This document shows positions 4,700 through 28,092 of a stretch of 35,487 nt of DNA, one piece after another. The notes beneath the pieces are model-generated. The model ran no database searches and was not told the DNA's origin. It saw only the letters and a list, made by a program, of their open reading frames with translations. The translations under genes were made by a program, and so were the position numbers. The DNA comes from Thermoflexales bacterium (GTDB lineage Bacteria > Chloroflexota > Anaerolineae > B4-G1 > SLSP01). The stretch lies in NCBI GenBank assembly GCA_007125545.1, contig SLDA01000441.1:1-35487 (forward strand), given 5' to 3'. The first letter of the stretch is position 1. Each line of letters starts with the position of its first letter.

Positions 4700-6139
4700 C
4701 TACTGCGTGAAGAAGGTGAAACCCTGCGCAGTCTGCAATGCAACCTGACTGGCCAGCTGCGGGAAGACGCCCAGGAATAGGATCCCACCCACCAACAGCA
4801 GGATCAAAACAAGCACGACCGGATCTTCCGGCACCGAGACAAATCGGCGTTGCGCGGGCACTGGAGCCAGGAGCATCCGCGCGCTACTGACTAACCCCAT
4901 CATCACCCCAGCACTACCGAGGAGGGCAATCGTGGCTTGAAATAGATTGGTCTCAGCAATCAGACGATAGAGTCCCCAGCGAGCTGCAAAACCAAGCGAG
5001 AGAGGGAACCCGGCCATCGCAATGCCGCCAATCATAAACGCCAGGGTACGCCACGGGGCGACCCAAGCCGCGCCCGTCAGATCGTCAATTTGATCTTCCC
5101 CGCCACCCAATCGACGGAGACCGTCCAGCCCCAAGGTCATCAGGCCCAGGGCCAGAGGACGGGCCATCAGGATCACCAGGGTAAGCGCCAATCCCGCCGT
5201 CTGGCGAGCACCCAACGCGACAAACATGGCACCATTGTCGACCAATGTAGCGTACCCCACCATCCGCCCCAGTCGACGTTGTGAAGCCGCCAGCGCACCT
5301 CCCAGCACCATCATCAACAAGCCCAAAGAGGTGAAGAGAGAGCCAAAGGCCGCCTGGTCACTCAACCAACGATAGTTCTGCAGGTATGCCAACAAGAGAA
5401 ACCACACGGTGCCTACATTGACGGTGAAAAGAAAGGTCACAACCGGGGGCGACCCATCCATGGCGACGGACGAGAGCCACGACTGGAAGGGTACGGCACC
5501 CAGGAGGATCGCCAGCGACAGCCCCAAAAGAATCGTCGCCGATTCCAGCAAACCCACGTCTCCGGGGAAGATAGCATACTGCTCCAGTAGCAACTGGGTG
5601 ATCATCAATCCCGGCAAGGCCAGTGTTGCGTATACCAGGTACTGCAAGCCACCCTTGGCCTTGCCGCCGTAGATGTTGCCTCTAGCATCGACAAGGGGTT
5701 CCTGCAGCGGGAACAGCGTCAGCAGCGCCGCGATCTCAATCAACAGTGCGGCAAAGACCACTTGCTGCACCATCATCGCACCCATCAACATCGCCACAGC
5801 TGCCAGGCCGCTGGGGAAGAAATTCGAGTGTGGCAGAAGCCGCCAAGCAACCAAAAACAGCATCGCCGCTGTGTAGCCGATAAACATAATCGGTAGCCGG
5901 TCGACGGGCTCGATCACCAGCAGACGTCCCCACACACTCAGGGGCGCACCCATATTTACCGTTACCGGCCCAAGGGAGACGGATTGGCCCAGCGGCGTGA
6001 GAGCAATCAGCGTGCTGACCCCAGCTGCTGCACCGAGAGCAAGCCACGCCATCAGATGCGTCCAGCGGCGCAGAAGCTGAAGCAGGGCGGCGGTAGCCAG
6101 CAAGGTGCCGATAACGAACAGCGGTCCGGAGAACGTCAC
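4700..6139 (-). CDS. Complex I-like antiporter-type membrane subunit (NuoN/NuoM-like), 479 aa
   Basis: About 14 hydrophobic helices and short loops place this in the proton-conducting membrane transporter family (NuoL/M/N, MrpA/D, HyfB/F). A TM5-like glutamate is present (ALLIEIAALL, about residue 136). The central region that is normally a lysine followed by a P-x-W-L-P-D-A-H-like stretch reads GAVPFQSWLSSVAM instead, and the second conserved lysine is replaced (FTVNVG). Proton-pumping residues therefore appear partly lost. The start is a GTG overlapping the stop of the preceding gene by 4 bp (GTGA), implying translational coupling. It is the last of three membrane genes. Its substrate and partner enzyme are unknown. 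Confidence 0.8.
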   Translation of the reverse strand: MTFSGPLFVIGTLLATAALLQLLRRWTHLMAWLALGAAAGVSTLIALTPLGQSVSLGPVTVNMGAPLSVWGRLLVIEPVDRLPIMFIGYTAAMLFLVAWRLLPHSNFFPSGLAAVAMLMGAMMVQQVVFAALLIEIAALLTLFPLQEPLVDARGNIYGGKAKGGLQYLVYATLALPGLMITQLLLEQYAIFPGDVGLLESATILLGLSLAILLGAVPFQSWLSSVAMDGSPPVVTFLFTVNVGTVWFLLLAYLQNYRWLSDQAAFGSLFTSLGLLMMVLGGALAASQRRLGRMVGYATLVDNGAMFVALGARQTAGLALTLVILMARPLALGLMTLGLDGLRRLGGGEDQIDDLTGAAWVAPWRTLAFMIGGIAMAGFPLSLGFAARWGLYRLIAETNLFQATIALLGSAGVMMGLVSSARMLLAPVPAQRRFVSVPEDPVVLVLILLLVGGILFLGVFPQLASQVALQTAQGFTFFTQ

Positions 6140-6759
6140 GCCGGAACCTCAGCAACAGTGAGGTAAGAAACAGCCAATCCAACGAGAAGGTTGATCACGA
6201 CCAACAGCCCGGCGATCAGAAGCCCCGGGTCCTGTGCGGTATAGAAGATCTCAAGCGCTGCCAGGAGGTTGAGCACCCCCACACCCACCACGCCTGGATC
6301 GTTCTCCTCGGTGCCAAAGAAAAGAACGGCAAGAATGCCGAGTAGGAAGCAGGCCAGTCCCAACTCAGCTGAAACATACGGAAGGGCGAACCGTTGCGAC
6401 GCCAACCACGCGACAACCGTAGCCGTCGTCAACATCAACGCCCGGAAGGGAAGGTTCGTTGCCCAGCGGAGTAGCTTGCCCGATTGCTGTGTGCTCTGCT
6501 GCCGAATTCTGGCGCTAATCAGCAAGGCCCCTGAGATCAGCCAACCGATCAGGACCTTCATAATCACCATCTCGAGCCGTGTGTCGAAGATGCGTGCAAA
6601 GAGCACGCCGATGAATAAGTACTGCACCAGGAGCGCCAGGAAACGAACCCGCCACGCGTCGATCACATAAATGACAGCGCCAGTGAGAAAGATGCCCCAC
6701 GCCGCCGGCATAGACACGAAATTGGAAAACTGATCCAACCAGACCAGGAAGGGATTCAT
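6136..6759 (-). CDS. Small multi-spanning membrane protein, HyfE/NuoK-like, 207 aa
   Basis: Six or so hydrophobic helices. The C-terminal part (VGVGVLNLLAALEIFYTA, then a final helix) resembles the NuoK/HyfE/MrpC fold, with an intramembrane glutamate in the penultimate helix. Its position between two antiporter-like subunits, as in Hyf- or Mrp-type membrane arms, supports this. The ATG at 6759 is preferred over an upstream in-frame start because it overlaps the preceding stop by 4 bp (ATGA), and the upstream residues are Arg/Cys-rich and out of character. Sequence identity to HyfE cannot be judged by eye, so the family call is tentative, but a membrane role is clear. Confidence 0.75.
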   Translation of the reverse strand: MNPFLVWLDQFSNFVSMPAAWGIFLTGAVIYVIDAWRVRFLALLVQYLFIGVLFARIFDTRLEMVIMKVLIGWLISGALLISARIRQQSTQQSGKLLRWATNLPFRALMLTTATVVAWLASQRFALPYVSAELGLACFLLGILAVLFFGTEENDPGVVGVGVLNLLAALEIFYTAQDPGLLIAGLLVVINLLVGLAVSYLTVAEVPA

Positions 6760-8306
6760 CGGCTCCCCATTATCATCAACACCAGCAGCACAATCAGCAA
6801 GGACCAGAGCACGGAGCCGCTGCCCTCCACGACGTCGGCAGTCGCACGCAGAACGCCCAGCATATTCTCTGACCCCTCCCAAACCGCACTATATAGCCAT
6901 TGAAGATCGACCAGATCGACCAGAAAACGGAGGCGATCCAGACTCCGCTGCACGATGTTGCTGAAATGAGCCAAAACCAGCGCGAGAACCAGCGCGGCGG
7001 TCCAGAGAAGCAAAGAAACTGGAGCTCCGGCTGCGAGATCCACGTGTACCGCAGCGCCGATTATCACCGCAACAATCAATACCAGCCCGGCCAGCGCACT
7101 CAATAGCAGGTACATATGCGGCGGGCGGACTCGCCCCTGAGCTTGCCGGCTGGTGCTGCGCAATAGTGCAGCTGCAGTTCCCGCAAAAGCCAGCATACCG
7201 AAGATCCGTAAGGGCCAAGAGGGCACTTCGAAGAGACCACGGTAGAGAGAGAACAGGGGTGACGGCGGGGCTCCGATGAGGAAGCAGACTGCGATAGCAG
7301 CGGGCCAGACGAGATAGAAGTCACGCCGCTCGAAGCGCTTGGTGACGATCAATAACGCCATGCAGGCGACCCAAGTTCCAGTGCCGAGAAGCAAGAGAGC
7401 TGCATCGCCCAGCACCAGCGCACCCGTAACCACTCCCAGCAAAGCGGCGTGGCCTGCGACCAGGAGGGCCTGGCGTCCCCTGAAACTCAACGCCTTGATA
7501 CCGAGCCAGAGAAGCGACAAGATGCCCCAGGTGACTACCCATACGGGTAGGACCACCAGTCCCGGCAAGGAGATCAACCGGTACAGCAGAGCGATCCCCA
7601 TAATCGGATTCATAATGCTCATCAGCGTCAGAGGATGCGAACGGCTGAGCACCTCCGTGTTCACGATCTGAAACGGATAGAATCCCACACGCATCAAACC
7701 GGCGATCAACAGCAGCACGAGAGAGGAGTTGGAGGGGCGCATGAGCCACCAGATGCCGCTGGTTCCTTCACGCAACAGGAAGAGGGATATCGTCCAGAGC
7801 AGCACCGACGCGAAGCCCTGCACAGCAGCCGCCCATACCACCCGCTCGCCCTCCTGGCCGGCGACCAGACGGACCACAACCCACGCGATGTCAAAGATGG
7901 CCCACAGCGCGAGGGTCATCAGCACCGACCCGGCGCTGAGCGCCAGCCAGGTCACGGTGAAGAGAAACAGCAACAGGGTCCCACCGAAGGAGAGAGCAAT
8001 CCGGCGCTCGGCAAGCTCCACCCACAACAGGCCGCTGACTGCAGCGCCGAACATTAGAGTAGCCCACCAAATCTCGGGGCTCAGATCGAGTATCAGCCAT
8101 CCACCGGTCACACTCATCGGCGCCCAAACAGAAAGCACCCATGTCGCCGACAGGGGTACTGTAGCCCAAACTACCGTCAAGAGCGTCATCCAGGCGGCAG
8201 CCAGAGGTTTATGTATAATGCGTAATTTGGGAATGGCATTGGTGGCGAGAAGCAGCACGCCACCACCGATCCCCATGTAGATCAAAAGTGGAAAGAAATA
8301 GACCAT
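6756..8306 (-). CDS. Complex I-like antiporter-type membrane subunit (NuoL/M-like), 516 aa
   Basis: A polytopic protein of about 14 helices, first gene of the three-gene membrane operon. Features reminiscent of the antiporter family are an acidic residue in the TM5 region (AIFDIAWVV, where Glu is usual) and a central stretch, LMRVGFYPFQ, matching the position of the broken TM7 helix, with Arg where Lys is canonical. The usual PDAH motif is absent. This is a divergent member, and conduction cannot be assumed. The ATG at 8306 is chosen because GGAG lies 6 bases upstream; a TTG four codons earlier would itself contain that site. The promoter at 8325-8352 would give a leader of only about 12 bases. 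Confidence 0.78.
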   Translation of the reverse strand: MVYFFPLLIYMGIGGGVLLLATNAIPKLRIIHKPLAAAWMTLLTVVWATVPLSATWVLSVWAPMSVTGGWLILDLSPEIWWATLMFGAAVSGLLWVELAERRIALSFGGTLLLFLFTVTWLALSAGSVLMTLALWAIFDIAWVVVRLVAGQEGERVVWAAAVQGFASVLLWTISLFLLREGTSGIWWLMRPSNSSLVLLLIAGLMRVGFYPFQIVNTEVLSRSHPLTLMSIMNPIMGIALLYRLISLPGLVVLPVWVVTWGILSLLWLGIKALSFRGRQALLVAGHAALLGVVTGALVLGDAALLLLGTGTWVACMALLIVTKRFERRDFYLVWPAAIAVCFLIGAPPSPLFSLYRGLFEVPSWPLRIFGMLAFAGTAAALLRSTSRQAQGRVRPPHMYLLLSALAGLVLIVAVIIGAAVHVDLAAGAPVSLLLWTAALVLALVLAHFSNIVQRSLDRLRFLVDLVDLQWLYSAVWEGSENMLGVLRATADVVEGSGSVLWSLLIVLLVLMIMGSR

Positions 8307-8324
8307 TGTCGACTCCAAACCGCG

Positions 8325-12162: not shown

Positions 12163-13218
12163 CTACCCCGCCGCCACCAGTCTGCGCGAGACCTTGCCCA
12201 GCCCCCAGCCCATCGCTCCGACCAGGGCAGCATAGCCAAGCACTGCGGACAGCCCAACCCCGGGATCCCCTGTCGCGAGGCGTGTCAGCAGCGTTACCGG
12301 CGAGAGATCCGACATGAAGCTGAGGCTGGCGGCGAGGAGGATGAAGAGAGCGTAGATAAACTGACCCCGTTCTCTGTCGTGGAAGAGGAGCGTGATAAGG
12401 GCCGACACAATGGCGATAGCGGTGGCACTGAGTGTGCTCACGGCAAGCACCAGGGGCACCCGGTGGACCACGATCCCATTGAGGCCCATGAGCGCCACCC
12501 AGCACAGCCCCTGGGCCAAGCTGACTGCCAGCGCTGCTGTCATTTTGGCGCCGAGGATTGTGTTCAGCGAGAGTGGGCCCGCCCACAGGGTCTCCAATGT
12601 GTGGTTCACCATCTCCTCTGAGATCGTGTCGATCACGATCCCGCCGGTCACAAAGCCGGGGAAGAAGAGCAGTAAGGGAATGAGCGCCCCATACTGGAAC
12701 TCGTACGTGCTCGACGAAAGGCCCTGGAGATTCGCGTAGCGCAGCTCGATCCCGTTCTCTTTACGCAACCGCTCCTCGTACTCCTTGAGCGGCTTGCGCA
12801 GCGCCATCCGCAGCAGCGTCGCTCGCGTGTCGGAGGCCGGCAGCACCAATTCAGCCTCGGACACCTCATCTGCACCGTTCAGCGTATCGGGCAGCAGAAT
12901 CGCTGCGTCCAATTCACCCGCATCAAATGCGACCTGCACAGCGGCGGACGATGGGAATTGGCGGGGTTGGGCGTCATTCTCCGCCAGCACCGCCGCCATC
13001 GCGGCGGCAGCGTCCACTTCACCCACCACCCCTACACGTGGACGCATCTGGCTTGTCAGCTGCGTGCTATCGGGATCGTAGATCGAGATCAATCCCACCA
13101 ACAGTGTGGACGAGAAAGACGCGACAAACAGCTGGATCGCGAAGGCGATCAGAATCGTGCGTTCGCGGATCAGCGCACGCACTTCACGCTCCAGCAGGGC
13201 CCGAAATGCTGCGCTCAT
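12163..13218 (-). CDS. ABC-2 type transporter permease (NatB-like), 351 aa
   Basis: Topology is one N-terminal helix (about 20-45), a large extracytoplasmic domain (about 50-185) and five to six C-terminal helices. This is the usual layout of ABC-2 permeases in NatAB-type exporters. The C-terminal membrane half contains IDTISEEMVNHTLETLWAGP, the coupling-helix region that docks on the ATPase. The ATG at 13218 overlaps the stop of the upstream permease gene by 4 bp (ATGA). An upstream in-frame extension is Pro/Gly/Arg-rich, lies inside the neighbour and is rejected. The ATPase partner is most likely the divergent gene at 14869. The substrate is unknown. Confidence 0.85.
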   Translation of the reverse strand: MSAAFRALLEREVRALIRERTILIAFAIQLFVASFSSTLLVGLISIYDPDSTQLTSQMRPRVGVVGEVDAAAAMAAVLAENDAQPRQFPSSAAVQVAFDAGELDAAILLPDTLNGADEVSEAELVLPASDTRATLLRMALRKPLKEYEERLRKENGIELRYANLQGLSSSTYEFQYGALIPLLLFFPGFVTGGIVIDTISEEMVNHTLETLWAGPLSLNTILGAKMTAALAVSLAQGLCWVALMGLNGIVVHRVPLVLAVSTLSATAIAIVSALITLLFHDRERGQFIYALFILLAASLSFMSDLSPVTLLTRLATGDPGVGLSAVLGYAALVGAMGWGLGKVSRRLVAAG

Positions 13219-14828
13219 AGGCTCACTACCCCCAGAACCACCAAATTGTACATTAGGTGCACGGCACCTGCGACCGCCAGCGCATAGCGGTACCGGCGCG
13301 GGCCCCACCAAAGGAGGAGCAGCGCCAGGATCGCGGTGAACACCCAGTGAGCGGCTAACGTAATCCAGAGCTTTCCGGCATTAAGCAGCACGGCGGACAA
13401 CAGAGACTCCGACACACTTTGAATCGACACCATCAGCAGCAACTTCTCCCCGATCAAGAACCCGAGCGCCGACAGGAATGCCAATAGCACCACCGGCAGC
13501 ACCTTGTTGACCCGCCGCTCCTCGATCAGCATCGCGATCCCGCCAGACTTCGCCACCTCCTCCACCACCACCGACGCTGCCAGGACTCCGCCGAGAGCCA
13601 GGCGCAATGGGAAATTGAGCGCGAATGTCAGCGCCACCAGTTGTATCAGATACACCATGGGGATCAGGCCAAGGCTGACGAGGAAGGTGGACAGATAGGG
13701 ACGCCGCAGGTCCATCGCCATGTACACCGCCTCCGCCAGCTTGCGGTAGATGGGGCGGTGCCGTGACAGGTACTCCTCGTTCAGAATCCGGCTCCCGATG
13801 TAGATGAAGATGCTGAACATCAGGAGCATCGGCAGCGCCGCCGTTAGGTACGCGCGCAGGCTAAAGGCGTTGTCCTGATACATCTCGACCGCCAGGCTCA
13901 GCGGCGAAATGTAGGCAAGATCGCTGAACCCCAGCAGCATCGCCGGGAAGACCAGGTAGAGCGTGGTCGCAACGGTGACGAACATCGAGATGAAGGTCGT
14001 GTCCATAAACGAGCGGTAGATCAATGGCACCATCAAAGTCACCGACAGGACGAAACAGATCACCGGCACGAAAATAATCGCCGCAAGCAGCGGGTTGCCG
14101 CCCAAAACCGTTGCCATAGCCATCACCACCACCAACGCAAACAACAGGTACGGCAGCACCTTGCCAAGGATGATCTGCAGCGACGAGATCGGGGATGCCA
14201 GAAGCACGCTAATCCGGCGCTCGCGCCGCTCCTCCATCAACCCACTGGTGAAGAACATACCGACCAGGAAAATCGGGAACAGGTGAAGTGACGCCTTAAG
14301 GACACCCTCAAAGGGCATGGGCGGCTGCATCAGGGAGGGAACAACCACCTCCTTGTCGCGCTCGGTCGCCAGGTCCTCGGGAATGGGAAAGCTCGTGACC
14401 CCCACGCGAAACGGAAAGCCCTCAGACGCCGGATAGTCCTCGGCGATCCTTGCAAGTTCCGTTGTCTCCAGGTATAGTCTCAGCGCGCCGACGGCATACT
14501 GCGCCTTCTCCGTATCGCGCGGGATCACGTTCGCGCTATCGATGTAGACGTCGATGCGGCCTTCAGCCAGCGCAGCGTGCCCCTCGGACGGAGACATAGT
14601 CCGAGCACGGAATCGGGGATCGTTGAGTGTGGGACCGTCGGACGAGACGCCCACGTTATAGATCGCGCGTCCGCGAATGCCTTGTTGACGGTAGCTGACG
14701 TAGCTGACGAGCAACACCAGCACGAGCGCGCCGAGCACCAAGGGGCGACTGCGATCGGAGAATCGCGAACGGAGGCGGGTTAACTCCCGGTTAGTGATAG
14801 CCAGCGATGTGCCGAGAAATGCTTTCAT
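13215..14828 (-). CDS. ABC-2 permease fused to a PrsW-like intramembrane protease domain, 537 aa
   Basis: Residues 1-350 are an ABC-2 permease: N-terminal helix (about 29-45), an extracytoplasmic domain, then helices including the coupling-helix motif MEERRERRISVLLASPIS (about 198-215). Residues about 375-537 form a second membrane domain with the four hallmark motifs of PrsW-type glutamic proteases: EEVAK (E423, E424, K427), GFLIGEK (E461), HWVFTA (H494) and HLMYN (H524, N528). PrsW in Bacillus cleaves an anti-sigma factor within the membrane; CPBP proteases use a related motif set (EExxxR). Here Lys is in the motif, favouring PrsW. It overlaps the second permease gene by 4 bp. A role such as export coupled to precursor processing is an inference. 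Confidence 0.82.
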   Translation of the reverse strand: MKAFLGTSLAITNRELTRLRSRFSDRSRPLVLGALVLVLLVSYVSYRQQGIRGRAIYNVGVSSDGPTLNDPRFRARTMSPSEGHAALAEGRIDVYIDSANVIPRDTEKAQYAVGALRLYLETTELARIAEDYPASEGFPFRVGVTSFPIPEDLATERDKEVVVPSLMQPPMPFEGVLKASLHLFPIFLVGMFFTSGLMEERRERRISVLLASPISSLQIILGKVLPYLLFALVVVMAMATVLGGNPLLAAIIFVPVICFVLSVTLMVPLIYRSFMDTTFISMFVTVATTLYLVFPAMLLGFSDLAYISPLSLAVEMYQDNAFSLRAYLTAALPMLLMFSIFIYIGSRILNEEYLSRHRPIYRKLAEAVYMAMDLRRPYLSTFLVSLGLIPMVYLIQLVALTFALNFPLRLALGGVLAASVVVEEVAKSGGIAMLIEERRVNKVLPVVLLAFLSALGFLIGEKLLLMVSIQSVSESLLSAVLLNAGKLWITLAAHWVFTAILALLLLWWGPRRYRYALAVAGAVHLMYNLVVLGVVSL

Positions 14829-14868: not shown

Positions 14869-15789
14869 ATGAGCGCACTAGACAATGCCATCTCGCTTCG
14901 CAACGTGACCAAACTCTATCGCGACACCGCCGCCGTCAAGGACCTCAGCCTGGACGTGAAACCAGGCGAGATCGTGGGCATCATCGGACACAACGGCGCA
15001 GGCAAAAGCACCACCCTGAAGATGATCCTGGGGCTCATCACCCCCTCCCATGGTACGGTTCACGTGCTGGGGCGCGATATGGCGCAGGAGCCCGTTGACG
15101 TCAAGCAGCGCATCGGCTATCTGCCCGAGGAGAGCTCACTCTACGACAACATGAACGTCGTGGAGTATCTTACGTTTTTCTCCAAACTATACAACCTGTC
15201 AAGACCCCTGGCAGGGGAGAGGATCGATGCCCTCCTGAACAGCCTGCAGCTCAATGCCGGGGAGAAGCTCACGATCGAGCTCTCCAAGGGCATGCGGCGC
15301 AAAGTAGCCATTGCCCGCACGCTCCTGCACGACCCCGAACTCCTGATCCTTGACGAGCCCAACTCGGGCCTCGACCCGCTGACCTCGTTCTTCGTCATCA
15401 ACTACCTGCAGGAACTGCGACGCCAGGGCAAGACCATTCTGGTAAGTGCCCACAACCTCTTCCACATCGAGCTGATCTGCGACCGGGTCGTCATTCTAAA
15501 ATCGGGAGAGCTCGTCGTCTGCGACAGAATGGACGCCATCCGCCAGCAGCTAGGCAGCCGGGGCTACGAGGTCCACTTCCGTGCGGACGAGTCCCTCGAC
15601 TATCCCGACGAGCAGGGCAACTACGTCTTCCGTTCCGACAGCATCGGCGACATCGCCACGATGCTGGAGACCATCTCCCAGAACGGGTGGAGCCTGGTCA
15701 ACCTCGCCATCCGTGAGTCCGCCCTGGAGGACATCTATGTCCGTCTGATGACGGACCCACCCGTGGACCCGGGCAACGGCAGAGGCTAG
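14869..15789 (+). CDS. ABC transporter ATP-binding protein (NatA-like), 306 aa
   Basis: A complete ABC ATPase that powers an exporter. It has Walker A GHNGAGKST (about 43-51), a signature-like ELSKGMRRKVAIA (LSKGM in place of LSGGQ), Walker B LLILDEPNSGLDP, and the switch His in SAHN. The C-terminal tail (to EDIYVRLM) is the usual extension of NatA/DrrA/CcmA types. The ATG at 14869 is chosen over one 25 codons upstream because AGGTGG lies about 10 bases before it, and the longer form would overlap the divergent permease gene. It is transcribed away from the two permease genes across only 40 bp, unusual for an ABC set. Confidence 0.9.
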   Translation: MSALDNAISLRNVTKLYRDTAAVKDLSLDVKPGEIVGIIGHNGAGKSTTLKMILGLITPSHGTVHVLGRDMAQEPVDVKQRIGYLPEESSLYDNMNVVEYLTFFSKLYNLSRPLAGERIDALLNSLQLNAGEKLTIELSKGMRRKVAIARTLLHDPELLILDEPNSGLDPLTSFFVINYLQELRRQGKTILVSAHNLFHIELICDRVVILKSGELVVCDRMDAIRQQLGSRGYEVHFRADESLDYPDEQGNYVFRSDSIGDIATMLETISQNGWSLVNLAIRESALEDIYVRLMTDPPVDPGNGRG

Positions 15790-23732: not shown

Positions 23733-24167
23733 ATGGCTGATGAGGAAAAGATCGTCGAACTGATCAAGGAAGTGCCGCTATTTGCAAACCTGAAACGGCG
23801 CCAACTGCAGAACCTAGCCCGGATCTTTGTAGAACGTAGATGCGGACCCGATGAAGTCATTGTGCCGCAGGGTCGCGACGGGTTTGGCTTCTTCGTTATC
23901 ACGTCAGGCTCTGCCAAGGCTGTTAGAGAACGAAGCGATGGATCGACCGTTGTAGTCAACACTTTCGGACCCAACGACTTTTTCGGCGAGCTAGCGCTAT
24001 TGGACAACGGCCCGCGCACCGCTTCTGTCATCGCGACAGAACCCACCCATTGTCTGATTCTGCCTCGCGAGAACTTCCTGGGCGCGCTGCGTCGAGATGG
24101 AGATATGGCAGTTGAAATTATGGTCGAGCTGGCCAGGAGATTCAGGACCGCCCTGGAGGTCTACTGA
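23733..24167 (+). CDS. Stand-alone cyclic-nucleotide-binding (CAP_ED) protein B, 144 aa
   Basis: One cNMP-binding domain without an effector domain, paralogous to the protein at 20491. The cassette FFGELALLDNGPRTASV keeps the ribose-binding Glu and the phosphate-binding Arg, so cAMP/cGMP binding is plausible. GGAGG lies 6 bases before the ATG. The gene is followed after 19 bp by the cyclase-domain gene, so the putative sensor and the putative nucleotide source are co-transcribed. With no output domain of its own, it probably regulates by protein contact, perhaps with the downstream protein. Confidence 0.9.
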   Translation: MADEEKIVELIKEVPLFANLKRRQLQNLARIFVERRCGPDEVIVPQGRDGFGFFVITSGSAKAVRERSDGSTVVVNTFGPNDFFGELALLDNGPRTASVIATEPTHCLILPRENFLGALRRDGDMAVEIMVELARRFRTALEVY

Positions 24168-24186
24168 GACTGCTGGAACCTACCTT

Positions 24187-27100
24187 ATGACCTGTCCGAC
24201 TTGTAGCTATGGTAATCGTGCCGAGGCGCTGTACTGCGGCATGTGTGGTACGCGGCTGACCCGCATCTGCCTTACCTGTGGGTATGCAAATCCGCGTGAT
24301 TATCGCTTCTGTATCCGCTGCGGCAACGAATTGGCCGCTGAACCCGGTATGCTGGTTGAAGCAGAGCAGGTCAAGCCCCTATCCCCGCCGCAGAACTTCC
24401 CGGAAGCCGAGCCCGCACCGGCAGCTGTTGATGGCGTGCCGGAGACCGGTCGTTACGCAGGTCGACAGTTGGAGGGAGAACGCCGGGTAGCCACCATCAT
24501 TATGACCGACGTCCAGGGCTCGACCGACTTACTAAGTAAGCTGGGCACAGAGGCGTGGGTGGAGCTGATGAACCGCATCTTCCAACTGATGGAAGCCGAA
24601 ATCTATCGGCTTGACGGCCGCGTCGATCAGTTCCGGGGCGACGGACTCGTGGCATTCTTTGGCACCGCGGTGGCGCACGAGGACGACCCCGAGCGTGGGG
24701 TCTTGGCGGCGATGGCGATGCAGAAGGCGACCCTTGACTTTGCTGCCGAGCTCTACGAGCTTGAAGGAATCAGCCTATCACTCCGTATCGGGGTCAACAC
24801 CGGCGAGGTCATCGTGACGAACGTCGGCAACGCCCTAACCTACAGCGAGGATACGGCGATGGGCGAGGCGATCGCTCTAGCGGCCAGGATGGAACAGGCC
24901 GCCGAGCCCGGCACAGTCCTGGTCAGCGAGAACACCTACTATATGACCGAGCAGCAGTTTGAGTGGCAGCCGCTGGGCCAAATCACGGTGAAGGGGATTG
25001 CCCAACCCGTCCGCGTCTACCGGCCCCTCGCTGCGCGGATCTCGCCGGAGCGCCCCGACTTCGAACTTGCGCCGACGCTGATCGGGCGGGAACAAGAGCT
25101 GGAAACCCTAATGGACGCCGTTGAGGACCTTCAAGAAGGTCGCGGCTCGATCCTGATGCTAACCGGCGACCGAGGCATGGGTAAGTCGGTGGTACTTCAG
25201 GAGATGCGCCGCAGCCTCGCCCGCCAGGAAGCCCTACGCGCCGAGATTCAACATGTGGAAGGCGCCTCTCTCGCCGGATTGGATCCGCATCTCCTTCCCG
25301 ACGAAGCCGGCGCGCTCACGCTGGGCGCTATGCACACGACCGAGATCCACGGGCGGGCACGCTCCTACGACCAATCCCAACCCTACGCCGTCTGGCAGGA
25401 TATGCTGCGTGATTGGCTGGGCGTGAGGCAGGACGAGCCGCAGGAGCGTGTGCGGGAGCGACTGCGCCAGGAGGTGGAGAAGCTGTGGGGCGAAGGACGG
25501 CTCGAGCATTATCCGGACCTCGCGCGATTCCTGGGTGTGCCGTTGGACGCGGCCTCTGCCGATCCGACCCAGTCGTTGGATGCAGAAAGCTCGCGACAGC
25601 GCCTCTTCCTGGCCATTCGAAGCTGGATCGAGCAATTGGCAAGCCTGGGGCCCTTGATCCTGACGTTCAATGATATGCACTGGGTAGACACGACCTCGCT
25701 AGATCTGCTCAGATACTGCCTGCCCCTCTGTGACTATCTGGATCTGCTCTGGCTCCTGGTATTCCGCCCGGACCGGCTCTCCGCGATCTGGCAGTTCAGC
25801 CACTACGTGGAGACGGAGTATCCGCATCGGGTGGTGCCGGTGACACTGCCGCCGCTGACCCCCAGTCAAAGTGAAACATTGATCGAACAGATTATCGGTC
25901 GTGATGTACTCCCGGCCGAAACGCAATCCCTCATCATTCAGAAAGCTGATGGGAATCCCTTTTTCACACAGGAACTGGTACGCTCTCTGGTTGCCGACGG
26001 CAGACTGGTGCGGGAAGTAGAGGTCAATGGGGATGGGCAGCCGGTCGAGCGGTGGCGGGCCACCGAAGCTGTCACCGACCTGGGTCTACCCGACAGTCTT
26101 CAGGGCCTGCTGATGGCCCGGATAGACCGACTGGGCGCAGCCGAGCAGGACATCTTGCTTCGTGCAGCCGTCATCGGATGCACTTTCTGGTCCAAGTTGC
26201 TTCAGGCCATCTCACCGGAGTATCCGGACCTGCGGGGAATCCTGACGGCACTCCAACGCGCACAACTGATCTCCGAACAGGGCCGGGGACCGGATCTCGG
26301 TGTGGAGTATGTCTTCAAATCGAAGTTGATCTGCGACGCAGCCTATGACAGCTTGCTGAGTTCGCAGCGTGCCGGCTATCATCACCGCATCGCCAACTAT
26401 CTGGAGACGCGATATGAGCGCGACCCGGATGCCCAAAATCAAAGTTTCTACTATAGGGAGCTGGCCTACCATTACCAGCACGCCAAGCAGCCCGACAAGG
26501 AGCTTGTCTACACGCTCAAGAACGCCGACCAGGCCAAGAGCATCTATGCCCACGCAGAGGCGGCCCAACACTACACGCATGCTCTCGACCTGCTCAAGGA
26601 GCTCTGCAAGCGCGTCGATGATGAGGAAGCTCACAAGCGGCTGAGGAGCCAATGCTTCCAGGTCTTGTTGAACCGTCGTGAGGTCTACTATATGATGGGC
26701 GAGTATAGCAAGATGCGTGCCGATGCCCAGGCGCTGCTGCCGCTGGCACGCGAGCTGCCCCACGAGCCGGTGCTGCTCATCGATGCCCTGCTCCACCAGC
26801 CCGGCGTCCGCGATCTTCAGGTCCGCGAGGAGGTGGAAAAAGGGATCGCTATGACTGAAGAAGCGCTGGCGTTGTCACGGCAGCTAGGCGACCGGCACCG
26901 TGAGATGGAGAGCCTTTTGGCGCTGACGAATCAGCGCTTGGCCTTCAGCGATCCGGAGTGGCAGACCATCGCAGAGCAGGCGCTCGCCCTTGCCGCCGAA
27001 CTCGAGAACCACTACTATGAGGCCAGAATCCTGGTCGGTATGGGCAGCATCTTTGCATACAGCGATGAACCCGAACGCAGTATGGAGTATCTGGAGGCGG

Positions 27101-28092
27101 CTGCGGCTCTCGCTATGAGCGAGGGCCTCGAGGACAAATTGATCCAGATGTCACTGCTGAACCTTCTCGGCCTGGAGCATGAGCGCAAAGGTGATTATTA
27201 CACGCTATTGGTCGACTACCAGCAAGAGCGACTGCACGCCAGCCGCGAGATCGGGCACCGCCCTATGCAGAGCCAAGCGCTCCAGGCTTGCGGACGCATC
27301 ATCGGTCTCTACCTCGGTGATTACAGCGCGGGCCTCAGCGCGCTTGAGGAGTGCCGCCGCATCCAGCATGGCAGTCCGGATGAGGTCTACCCCCTCTTTC
27401 ACATGCTCGAGATCTACGTAGCCCAGGCCGACCATGATGCCGCCCGTGAGGCGCTGGAGGAGATCCTGACCATTGGCGTGCCGGTGAGCGACAGGTCACA
27501 GGCCAGCTTAAAACTGGCAGAGATGAGCCTGCGGAATGCGGAGGCGGCACGCGCCGCGACCAAGGGCCACTCCGGAGAAGTCGTCGCGGCGCTACACAGA
27601 ACCCTGGAGCTCGCCACATCTGTGACAGAGCTGGCGGTCTGCAATCCGCTCATTTCACGCCAGTACGAGATGGCAGCCCAGTGCAAGGCAGTGACCGCCC
27701 ACCTGGGACTCGCCGTGACCGCAGAGGACGCCGAGGAGCGGCAGAGGCATCTGGAGGCAGCGCTAGAAGCTGGGGAACGTGCGTATGAGATATTCCAGCA
27801 CTTCGGCTTCGTACAGATTGTGGAGGCCACGAGTGAGAAGGTGCTTCTCCGCTACAGCCAGGCTTTGGCGGCCAACCAGCAGCAAGAGCTCTCCGTCCGC
27901 TACTTGAGGCGCGCCTACGATGAGATGATGCGGAAGCATGCGCTGATCCCGGCAGACAGCCCCTATCGCCGGACCTATCTCGAGCAGATCCCGATCCATC
28001 GCGAGATCCGTGCGGCCCACGCCACCCGGCTTGGCGCGATCTTGCCGGAGGCGCTGCAGACCTCTGGTCAGACGGAGATCACCGTACCGTAA
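24187..28092 (+). CDS. Zinc-ribbon / class III nucleotide cyclase / AAA ATPase / TPR protein, 1301 aa
   Basis: Domains in order: double zinc ribbon (CPTC...CGMC and CLTC...CIRC, 3-45), a class III adenylate/guanylate cyclase homology domain (about 98-280), a STAND-like AAA ATPase with Walker A GDRGMGKS (327-334) and the typical ADGNPFFTQELVRSL, then a long helical TPR-like region to the end. In the cyclase domain both metal Asp residues are present (D108 in MTDVQGST, D152 in RGDG), and so is R234. The adenine-specifying Lys is Q148, the usual DYTxxG is EDTAMG (221-226), and the transition-state Asn is A230. Cyclase activity is thus in doubt. The start at 24187 follows the cNMP-binding gene by 19 bp; its ribosome site is weak. 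It is probably a signalling hub. Confidence 0.88.
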   Translation: MTCPTCSYGNRAEALYCGMCGTRLTRICLTCGYANPRDYRFCIRCGNELAAEPGMLVEAEQVKPLSPPQNFPEAEPAPAAVDGVPETGRYAGRQLEGERRVATIIMTDVQGSTDLLSKLGTEAWVELMNRIFQLMEAEIYRLDGRVDQFRGDGLVAFFGTAVAHEDDPERGVLAAMAMQKATLDFAAELYELEGISLSLRIGVNTGEVIVTNVGNALTYSEDTAMGEAIALAARMEQAAEPGTVLVSENTYYMTEQQFEWQPLGQITVKGIAQPVRVYRPLAARISPERPDFELAPTLIGREQELETLMDAVEDLQEGRGSILMLTGDRGMGKSVVLQEMRRSLARQEALRAEIQHVEGASLAGLDPHLLPDEAGALTLGAMHTTEIHGRARSYDQSQPYAVWQDMLRDWLGVRQDEPQERVRERLRQEVEKLWGEGRLEHYPDLARFLGVPLDAASADPTQSLDAESSRQRLFLAIRSWIEQLASLGPLILTFNDMHWVDTTSLDLLRYCLPLCDYLDLLWLLVFRPDRLSAIWQFSHYVETEYPHRVVPVTLPPLTPSQSETLIEQIIGRDVLPAETQSLIIQKADGNPFFTQELVRSLVADGRLVREVEVNGDGQPVERWRATEAVTDLGLPDSLQGLLMARIDRLGAAEQDILLRAAVIGCTFWSKLLQAISPEYPDLRGILTALQRAQLISEQGRGPDLGVEYVFKSKLICDAAYDSLLSSQRAGYHHRIANYLETRYERDPDAQNQSFYYRELAYHYQHAKQPDKELVYTLKNADQAKSIYAHAEAAQHYTHALDLLKELCKRVDDEEAHKRLRSQCFQVLLNRREVYYMMGEYSKMRADAQALLPLARELPHEPVLLIDALLHQPGVRDLQVREEVEKGIAMTEEALALSRQLGDRHREMESLLALTNQRLAFSDPEWQTIAEQALALAAELENHYYEARILVGMGSIFAYSDEPERSMEYLEAAAALAMSEGLEDKLIQMSLLNLLGLEHERKGDYYTLLVDYQQERLHASREIGHRPMQSQALQACGRIIGLYLGDYSAGLSALEECRRIQHGSPDEVYPLFHMLEIYVAQADHDAAREALEEILTIGVPVSDRSQASLKLAEMSLRNAEAARAATKGHSGEVVAALHRTLELATSVTELAVCNPLISRQYEMAAQCKAVTAHLGLAVTAEDAEERQRHLEAALEAGERAYEIFQHFGFVQIVEATSEKVLLRYSQALAANQQQELSVRYLRRAYDEMMRKHALIPADSPYRRTYLEQIPIHREIRAAHATRLGAILPEALQTSGQTEITVP

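Follow-up and report, generated by a model that had tools for sequence, protein, structure and literature searches.

A predicted PrsW-type intramembrane protease domain fused to an ABC-2 permease in a three-gene cassette of Chloroflexota and euryarchaea

A minus-strand gene in the analysed window (the whole stretch of 35,487 nucleotides, contig SLDA01000441.1 of a Thermoflexales bacterium) encodes an ABC-2 permease that continues, within one uninterrupted frame of 537 codons, into a domain of five helices that belongs to the PrsW family of intramembrane proteases. With an ABC ATPase and a second, shorter permease, it makes up a set of three genes that is predicted to encode an ABC-2 (type V) machine, the long permease of which bears the PrsW-family protease at its C-terminus. 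Judged from sequence comparisons, this architecture taken alone, i.e., a permease–PrsW fusion in a three-gene set, is close to certain. Permease/CPBP fusions are already recognised (NCBIfam NF041647, ABC_perm_CPBP). The PrsW version appears to be undescribed; no description was found in the open-access literature searched, which is not proof of absence. In about 80 genomes from two domains of life, it would tie an intramembrane protease covalently to a membrane machine driven by ATP.

The Fusion Gene and Its Cassette

The genes of the cassette and the two halves of the fusion protein are located in the window as follows.

13215..14828 (stop codon included), minus strand: fusion gene, ABC-2 permease with PrsW-type intramembrane protease domain, 537 aa, ATG start (open reading frame, profiles, AF2)
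13785..14828, minus strand: permease half, residues 1-348, comprising TM1, an extracytoplasmic domain (about 48-172), a coupling helix (about 205-211), and TM2-TM6
13218..13733, minus strand: PrsW-type domain, residues 366-537, five TM helices (HHalign, PF13367 matches, AF2, fold match)
12163..13218, minus strand: second ABC-2 permease, 351 aa, without protease domain (Pfam ABC2_membrane_3, 1.6e-16)
14869..15789, plus strand: divergent ABC ATPase, ATG at 14869, frame open from 14794 (Pfam ABC_tran, 7e-34)

In the window copy, the permease covers residues 1 to about 348 and the five-helix PrsW-family domain residues 366-537. An earlier note on this DNA, which gave no strand, had placed both halves in one uninterrupted frame, and this is the case in the window as well as in 82 of the 82 homologues compared; a sequencing error that fused two genes is therefore ruled out. 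The same note correctly described the neighbours, a second permease adjoining the fusion and an ATPase on the opposite strand. The start of the second permease overlaps the stop of the fusion as ATGA, so the two are probably translationally coupled, and the start codons of fusion and ATPase are 40 bp apart. This order is widely kept. Wherever the contig reaches, the second permease lies directly downstream of the fusion in all loci compared, and it is missing only in L080, which is cut by the contig end. The ATPase is found upstream in all compared loci with enough flank, L049, L102, and L114 included, with the exception of L095, where no ATPase is present within 3.8 kb upstream. It is divergent in most loci and on the same strand in L034, L043, L055, and L114.

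The match of the window copy to Pfam ABC2_membrane_3 is weak (17.9 bits, below cut-off); among fusion members, 72 of 76 match this profile at E<=0.1, the best at 3.2e-22. The characteristics of an ABC-2 exporter are present, namely a permease with six TM helices and an extracytoplasmic domain (AF2 topology), a partner ATPase, and a second permease. The second permease is a paralogue of the permease half (HHalign 97.5%) and is without the C-terminal domain (HHalign 0.1%), so that the machine seems to be built on a pair of unequal permeases. NatAB-like/ABC2_membrane_3 exporters likewise combine an ATPase with ABC-2 permeases that have an extracytoplasmic domain between TM1 and TM2; they differ from the cassette described here, with its two unequal permeases, one carrying a protease domain.

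Assignment of the C-Terminal Domain to the PrsW Family

The membership of the C-terminal domain in the PrsW family is supported by profile comparisons of the family rather than by the window copy alone. The earlier note proposed a search of residues 370-537 with PrsW and CPBP models, and for the window copy the outcome was formally the one that the note regarded as refuting: neither a PrsW nor a CPBP match was obtained in single-sequence Pfam and NCBIfam HMM searches. A single-sequence PDB search with the window protein gave nothing for this domain, and the C-terminal profile had no match among PDB sequences. For the family, on the other hand, the outcome was positive. Three of ten C-terminal domains, each scanned alone, exceeded the curated Pfam cut-off of PF13367 (23.5 bits), with scores of 37.0 (L099), 34.6 (L061), and 31.6 bits (L114). 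The profile of the fusion C-terminus aligned to 29 stand-alone PrsW proteins with an HHalign probability of 95.3% and E 2e-8 (HHalign E-values here refer to a single comparison, not to a database search), with EExxK, FxxxE, His, and HxxxN all in register. Against 29 CPBP proteins, taken like the PrsW set from relatives of the window’s genome, the value was 1.7%. The negative controls gave 0.2% for the permease half against the PrsW profile and less than 0.4% for reversed or column-shuffled PrsW profiles.

These data bear on the alternative that the protein is a CPBP (Rce1/CAAX-type) fusion, i.e., another ABC_perm_CPBP protein. The overall design, with an intramembrane protease domain placed after an ABC-2 permease, is indeed the same as in NF041647, where the protease is of CPBP type. 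We consider this alternative extremely improbable: neither the window copy nor any of the 76 members scanned matched NF041647, the HHalign value for CPBP is low (see above), and the first motif reads EExxK versus EExxxR in CPBP (PMC4602095). Membership in NF041647 and a CPBP/type II CAAX (PF02517) identity, for which the window copy gave no Pfam match at E<=10, were accordingly rejected. The PrsW and CPBP fusions look independent because no member of the window’s family matches NF041647.

The AF2 models are confident, with pLDDT 93 and pTM 0.89 for the domain and pLDDT 87 and pTM 0.82 for the whole protein. With neither model did Foldseek return a match at E<=0.001; ABC-type proteins head the list for the full model. 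The top PDB fold match of the domain, 5a63 chain C, is weak (E 0.35, probability 0.75) and corresponds to APH-1 of gamma-secretase, a distant relative of PrsW and CPBP (PMC6588880). The identity proposed earlier, an ABC-2 permease with a PrsW-type domain beside a permease and an ATPase, is thus upheld by profile, conservation, and gene order, and weakly by fold. The domain shares with PrsW (PF13367; B. subtilis PrsW) four TM motifs in the same order (EExxK, FxxxE, His, HxxxN). It differs in forming the C-terminal domain of an ABC-2 permease in a three-gene transporter cassette; stand-alone PrsW frames from related genomes are mostly 330-460 aa long.

Conservation of the Motif Residues and a Copy Without Most of Them

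The four motifs, positioned by alignment and HHalign, are encoded by the following segments of the window.

13548..13562, minus strand: motif 1, EExxK, with E423, E424, V, A, K427
13446..13460, minus strand: motif 2, FxxxE, with F457 and E461
13347..13349, minus strand: motif 3, His, H494
13245..13259, minus strand: motif 4, HxxYN, with H524, Y527, and N528

The motif positions of the earlier note, EEVAK at 423-427, E461 in GFLIGEK, H494 in HWVFTA, and HLMYN at 524-528, proved exact. The PrsW motifs, EExxK, FxxxE, a conserved His, and HxxxD/N, are located in four successive core helices, and in the AF2 model these are 408-436 (E423, E424, K427), 443-469 (F457, E461), 484-508 (H494), and 510-531 (H524, N528). 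Of the 82 fusions compared, 80 retain all eight residues (E423, E424, K427, F457, E461, H494, H524, N528), at 26-57% identity to the window copy, which suggests that the putative catalytic residues are under selection. When the 82 distinct fusions were aligned and two of them set aside, L080 (cut by the contig end) and L069 (degenerate), 12 of the 172 C-terminal columns were invariant: P390, E423, E424, K427, F457, E461, K462, H494, Y513, H524, Y527, and N528. The seven polar motif residues (E423, E424, K427, E461, H494, H524, N528) all fall within these 12 columns (hypergeometric p about 1e-9). A chance motif was considered and rejected on the conservation and profile evidence.

The same two copies, 2 of 82, are the only departures from the full motif set. 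The degenerate one comes from a Chloroflexota genome that also holds an intact cassette.

L069:2-1507, plus strand: fusion with motifs AQ..Q / F..Q / N / N..LH, Chloroflexota genome G430
L187:2367-3983, minus strand: fusion in an intact cassette, same Chloroflexota genome G430

Of the 12 invariant residues, nine are substituted in L069 (E423A, E424Q, K427Q, E461Q, K462S, H494N, H524N, Y527L, N528H), while P390, F457, and Y513 are kept; the permease half is open and is followed by a second permease. The joint loss of exactly these residues points to a single function of the motif residues, one without which the permease can persist. L069 is thus predicted to be a natural protease-dead, transport-only version, the evidence for which comes from one metagenome-assembled genome, and together with L187, the fusion of the second, intact cassette with its ATPase, it offers a natural dead/alive pair for study. 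The retention of the domain in L069 without catalytic residues could also be taken to mean that the PrsW fold is kept in the membrane without a catalytic role, to stabilise the permease or to bind a ligand, like APH-1 in gamma-secretase, and APH-1 is the top, if weak, fold match. We regard this explanation as quite improbable, as every motif residue is kept in nearly all copies across wide divergence, and the one copy that shows the loss is accompanied by an intact one.

Distribution of the Fusion

A first contig scan with the single window sequence as query found no relatives. A search of the phylum revealed full-length relatives in 5 further genomes of 400, and a scan of genome contigs with a query derived from a profile yielded 151, the best 80 of which were read. 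Those 80 belong to Chloroflexota (Anaerolineae, Dehalococcoidia, Thermoflexia), Methanosarcinales, and one haloarchaeon. After removal of duplicates, the survey for the same fusion that the earlier note had called for amounts to at least 82 distinct fusions from bacteria and archaea (Chloroflexota, Methanosarcinales, haloarchaea), all of them uninterrupted. The distribution is patchy, because within the window’s own taxonomic family only 1 of 24 genomes, the window’s own, has the fusion. The tree separates the bacterial from the archaeal members by a single long branch, a split that may reflect common ancestry or a single ancient transfer; the window copy falls together with L035 and L079 (52-53% identity). 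The public annotation of such a fusion can be uninformative; the copy on a Haladaptatus plasmid is named merely ‘ABC transporter permease subunit’. Methanolobus and haloarchaea are cultivable hosts in which the cassette could be studied.

Topology and Proposed Mechanism

The loops differ strongly in positive charge. Family-wide, the number of K/R per sequence is 1.9 in loop 437-442 and 1.3 in 508-513, compared with 0.01 in 404-407 and 0.25 in 470-483. Taken together with the AF2 helices, these charges point to a 6+5 helix arrangement with the N-terminus inside and the C-terminus outside. Under this topology, E461, H494, and H524 would lie about 6-10 residues, and E423, E424, and K427 about 15-19 residues, from the outer helix ends, and because of these distances the putative site is placed in the outer half to the middle of the membrane. 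Such a depth would suit site-1-like cutting of single-pass or lipid-anchored proteins. The similar membrane depth of the motif residues, along with their joint loss in L069, lends indirect support to the prediction that they converge on one site.

The mechanism we favour, tentatively and at somewhat less than even confidence, is that cleavage in the outer half of the membrane is coupled to ATP-driven removal of the product (cleave-and-extract). It assumes that the PrsW domain would be active as a protease, that its substrate, held in the membrane by a single pass or a lipid anchor, would be cut near the extracytoplasmic side, and that the permease pair would then remove or export the cleavage product at the expense of ATP. 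The recurrence of the set of pump and protease, with its active-site residues kept, suggests that proteolysis of a membrane protein is coupled in a single process to its movement or its sensing. A possible precedent, by analogy, for transporter–protease coupling is known from Bacillus subtilis, where the ABC transporter EcsAB is needed for intramembrane proteolysis by RasP and a membrane-cleaning role was proposed (PMC2996298). The likeness is in the transporter, the loss of which blocks intramembrane proteolysis; unlike in the fusion, EcsAB and RasP are not joined in one protein, and RasP is a site-2 protease rather than a PrsW. The fusion makes the question raised by EcsAB/RasP, whether ABC transporters feed or clear intramembrane proteases, directly testable.

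Neighbouring Genes and Alternative Functions

In archaea, a DUF11/CARDB surface protein is encoded directly downstream of the cassette, on the same strand, in 18 of 28 loci with enough flank, and a gene for an MscS-type channel separates the ATPase from the fusion in Methanolobus and related loci (a cluster of 17 archaeal loci).

L089:10283-12109, plus strand: DUF11/CARDB surface protein, candidate client or partner, with homologues in other Methanosarcinaceae loci
L089:6417-7235, L082:7026-7856, L102:6467-7282, and L095:2933-3748, minus strand: MscS-type channel genes (Pfam on L089 only)

Both neighbours are associations only. The DUF11/CARDB protein has about 600 aa, a hydrophobic N-terminal segment, and a C-terminal TM with a short basic tail; it is confined to a part of the Methanosarcinales and absent from Methanoperedens and haloarchaea. 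In the cleave-and-extract mechanism, this downstream protein would be the best candidate client of the machine in Methanosarcinaceae. Counting against the mechanism are the restricted occurrence of this protein, which may be linked for another reason, and the bacterial loci, where no further gene is constantly linked.

The MscS-type gene hints at envelope stress and thereby at the main rival to ATP-driven product removal, an ATP-gated or load-sensing signalling protease. Here, the permease pair would serve as a mechanical or substrate sensor and turn on the PrsW domain, which would cleave a regulator in a site-1-like kind of signalling, with little or no product transport. It is in line with the role of B. 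subtilis PrsW as the site-1 protease of the anti-sigma factor RsiW (PMC4602095) and with PrsW domains fused elsewhere to PilZ, FHA, and cyclic-nucleotide-binding sensory domains (PMC3482391). No sigma/anti-sigma pair is apparent, however, on inspection of the window by eye or in the recurrent neighbours identified, and signalling in archaea would require a different type of target. On balance, we hold this explanation to be possible but unlikely.

Still less likely is a peptide exporter with built-in processing, in which PrsW would trim the precursor peptide, or signal-peptide remnants, of its own cargo. Exporters that carry their own protease are well established, bacteriocin exporters with C39 domains being an example. 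PrsW-dependent export of toxins has been proposed as well (PMC3482391). Against this explanation, the small linked substrate gene suggested earlier did not emerge, since no small precursor-like gene is conserved beside the cassette among the frames of at least 80 aa compared, a threshold at which very short peptides could be missed.

In a wider form of cleave-and-extract, which we put forward as speculative and on the whole rather unlikely to hold in full, Chloroflexota and euryarchaea would share an ATP-driven machine, a PrsW-type protease built into a pair of ABC-2 permeases. It would cleave surface or signal proteins anchored in the membrane from the outer side, with extraction of the fragments by the same complex, and protease-dead paralogues would serve in transport only.

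Two further regions of the window were noted by eye. At 4700-8318 on the minus strand, three overlapping genes for membrane proteins look like complex I/Mrp-type antiporter subunits, and at 24097-28092 on the plus strand a protein of 1331 aa looks like a signalling protein with a zinc ribbon, a class III adenylate cyclase, and AAA/TPR parts.
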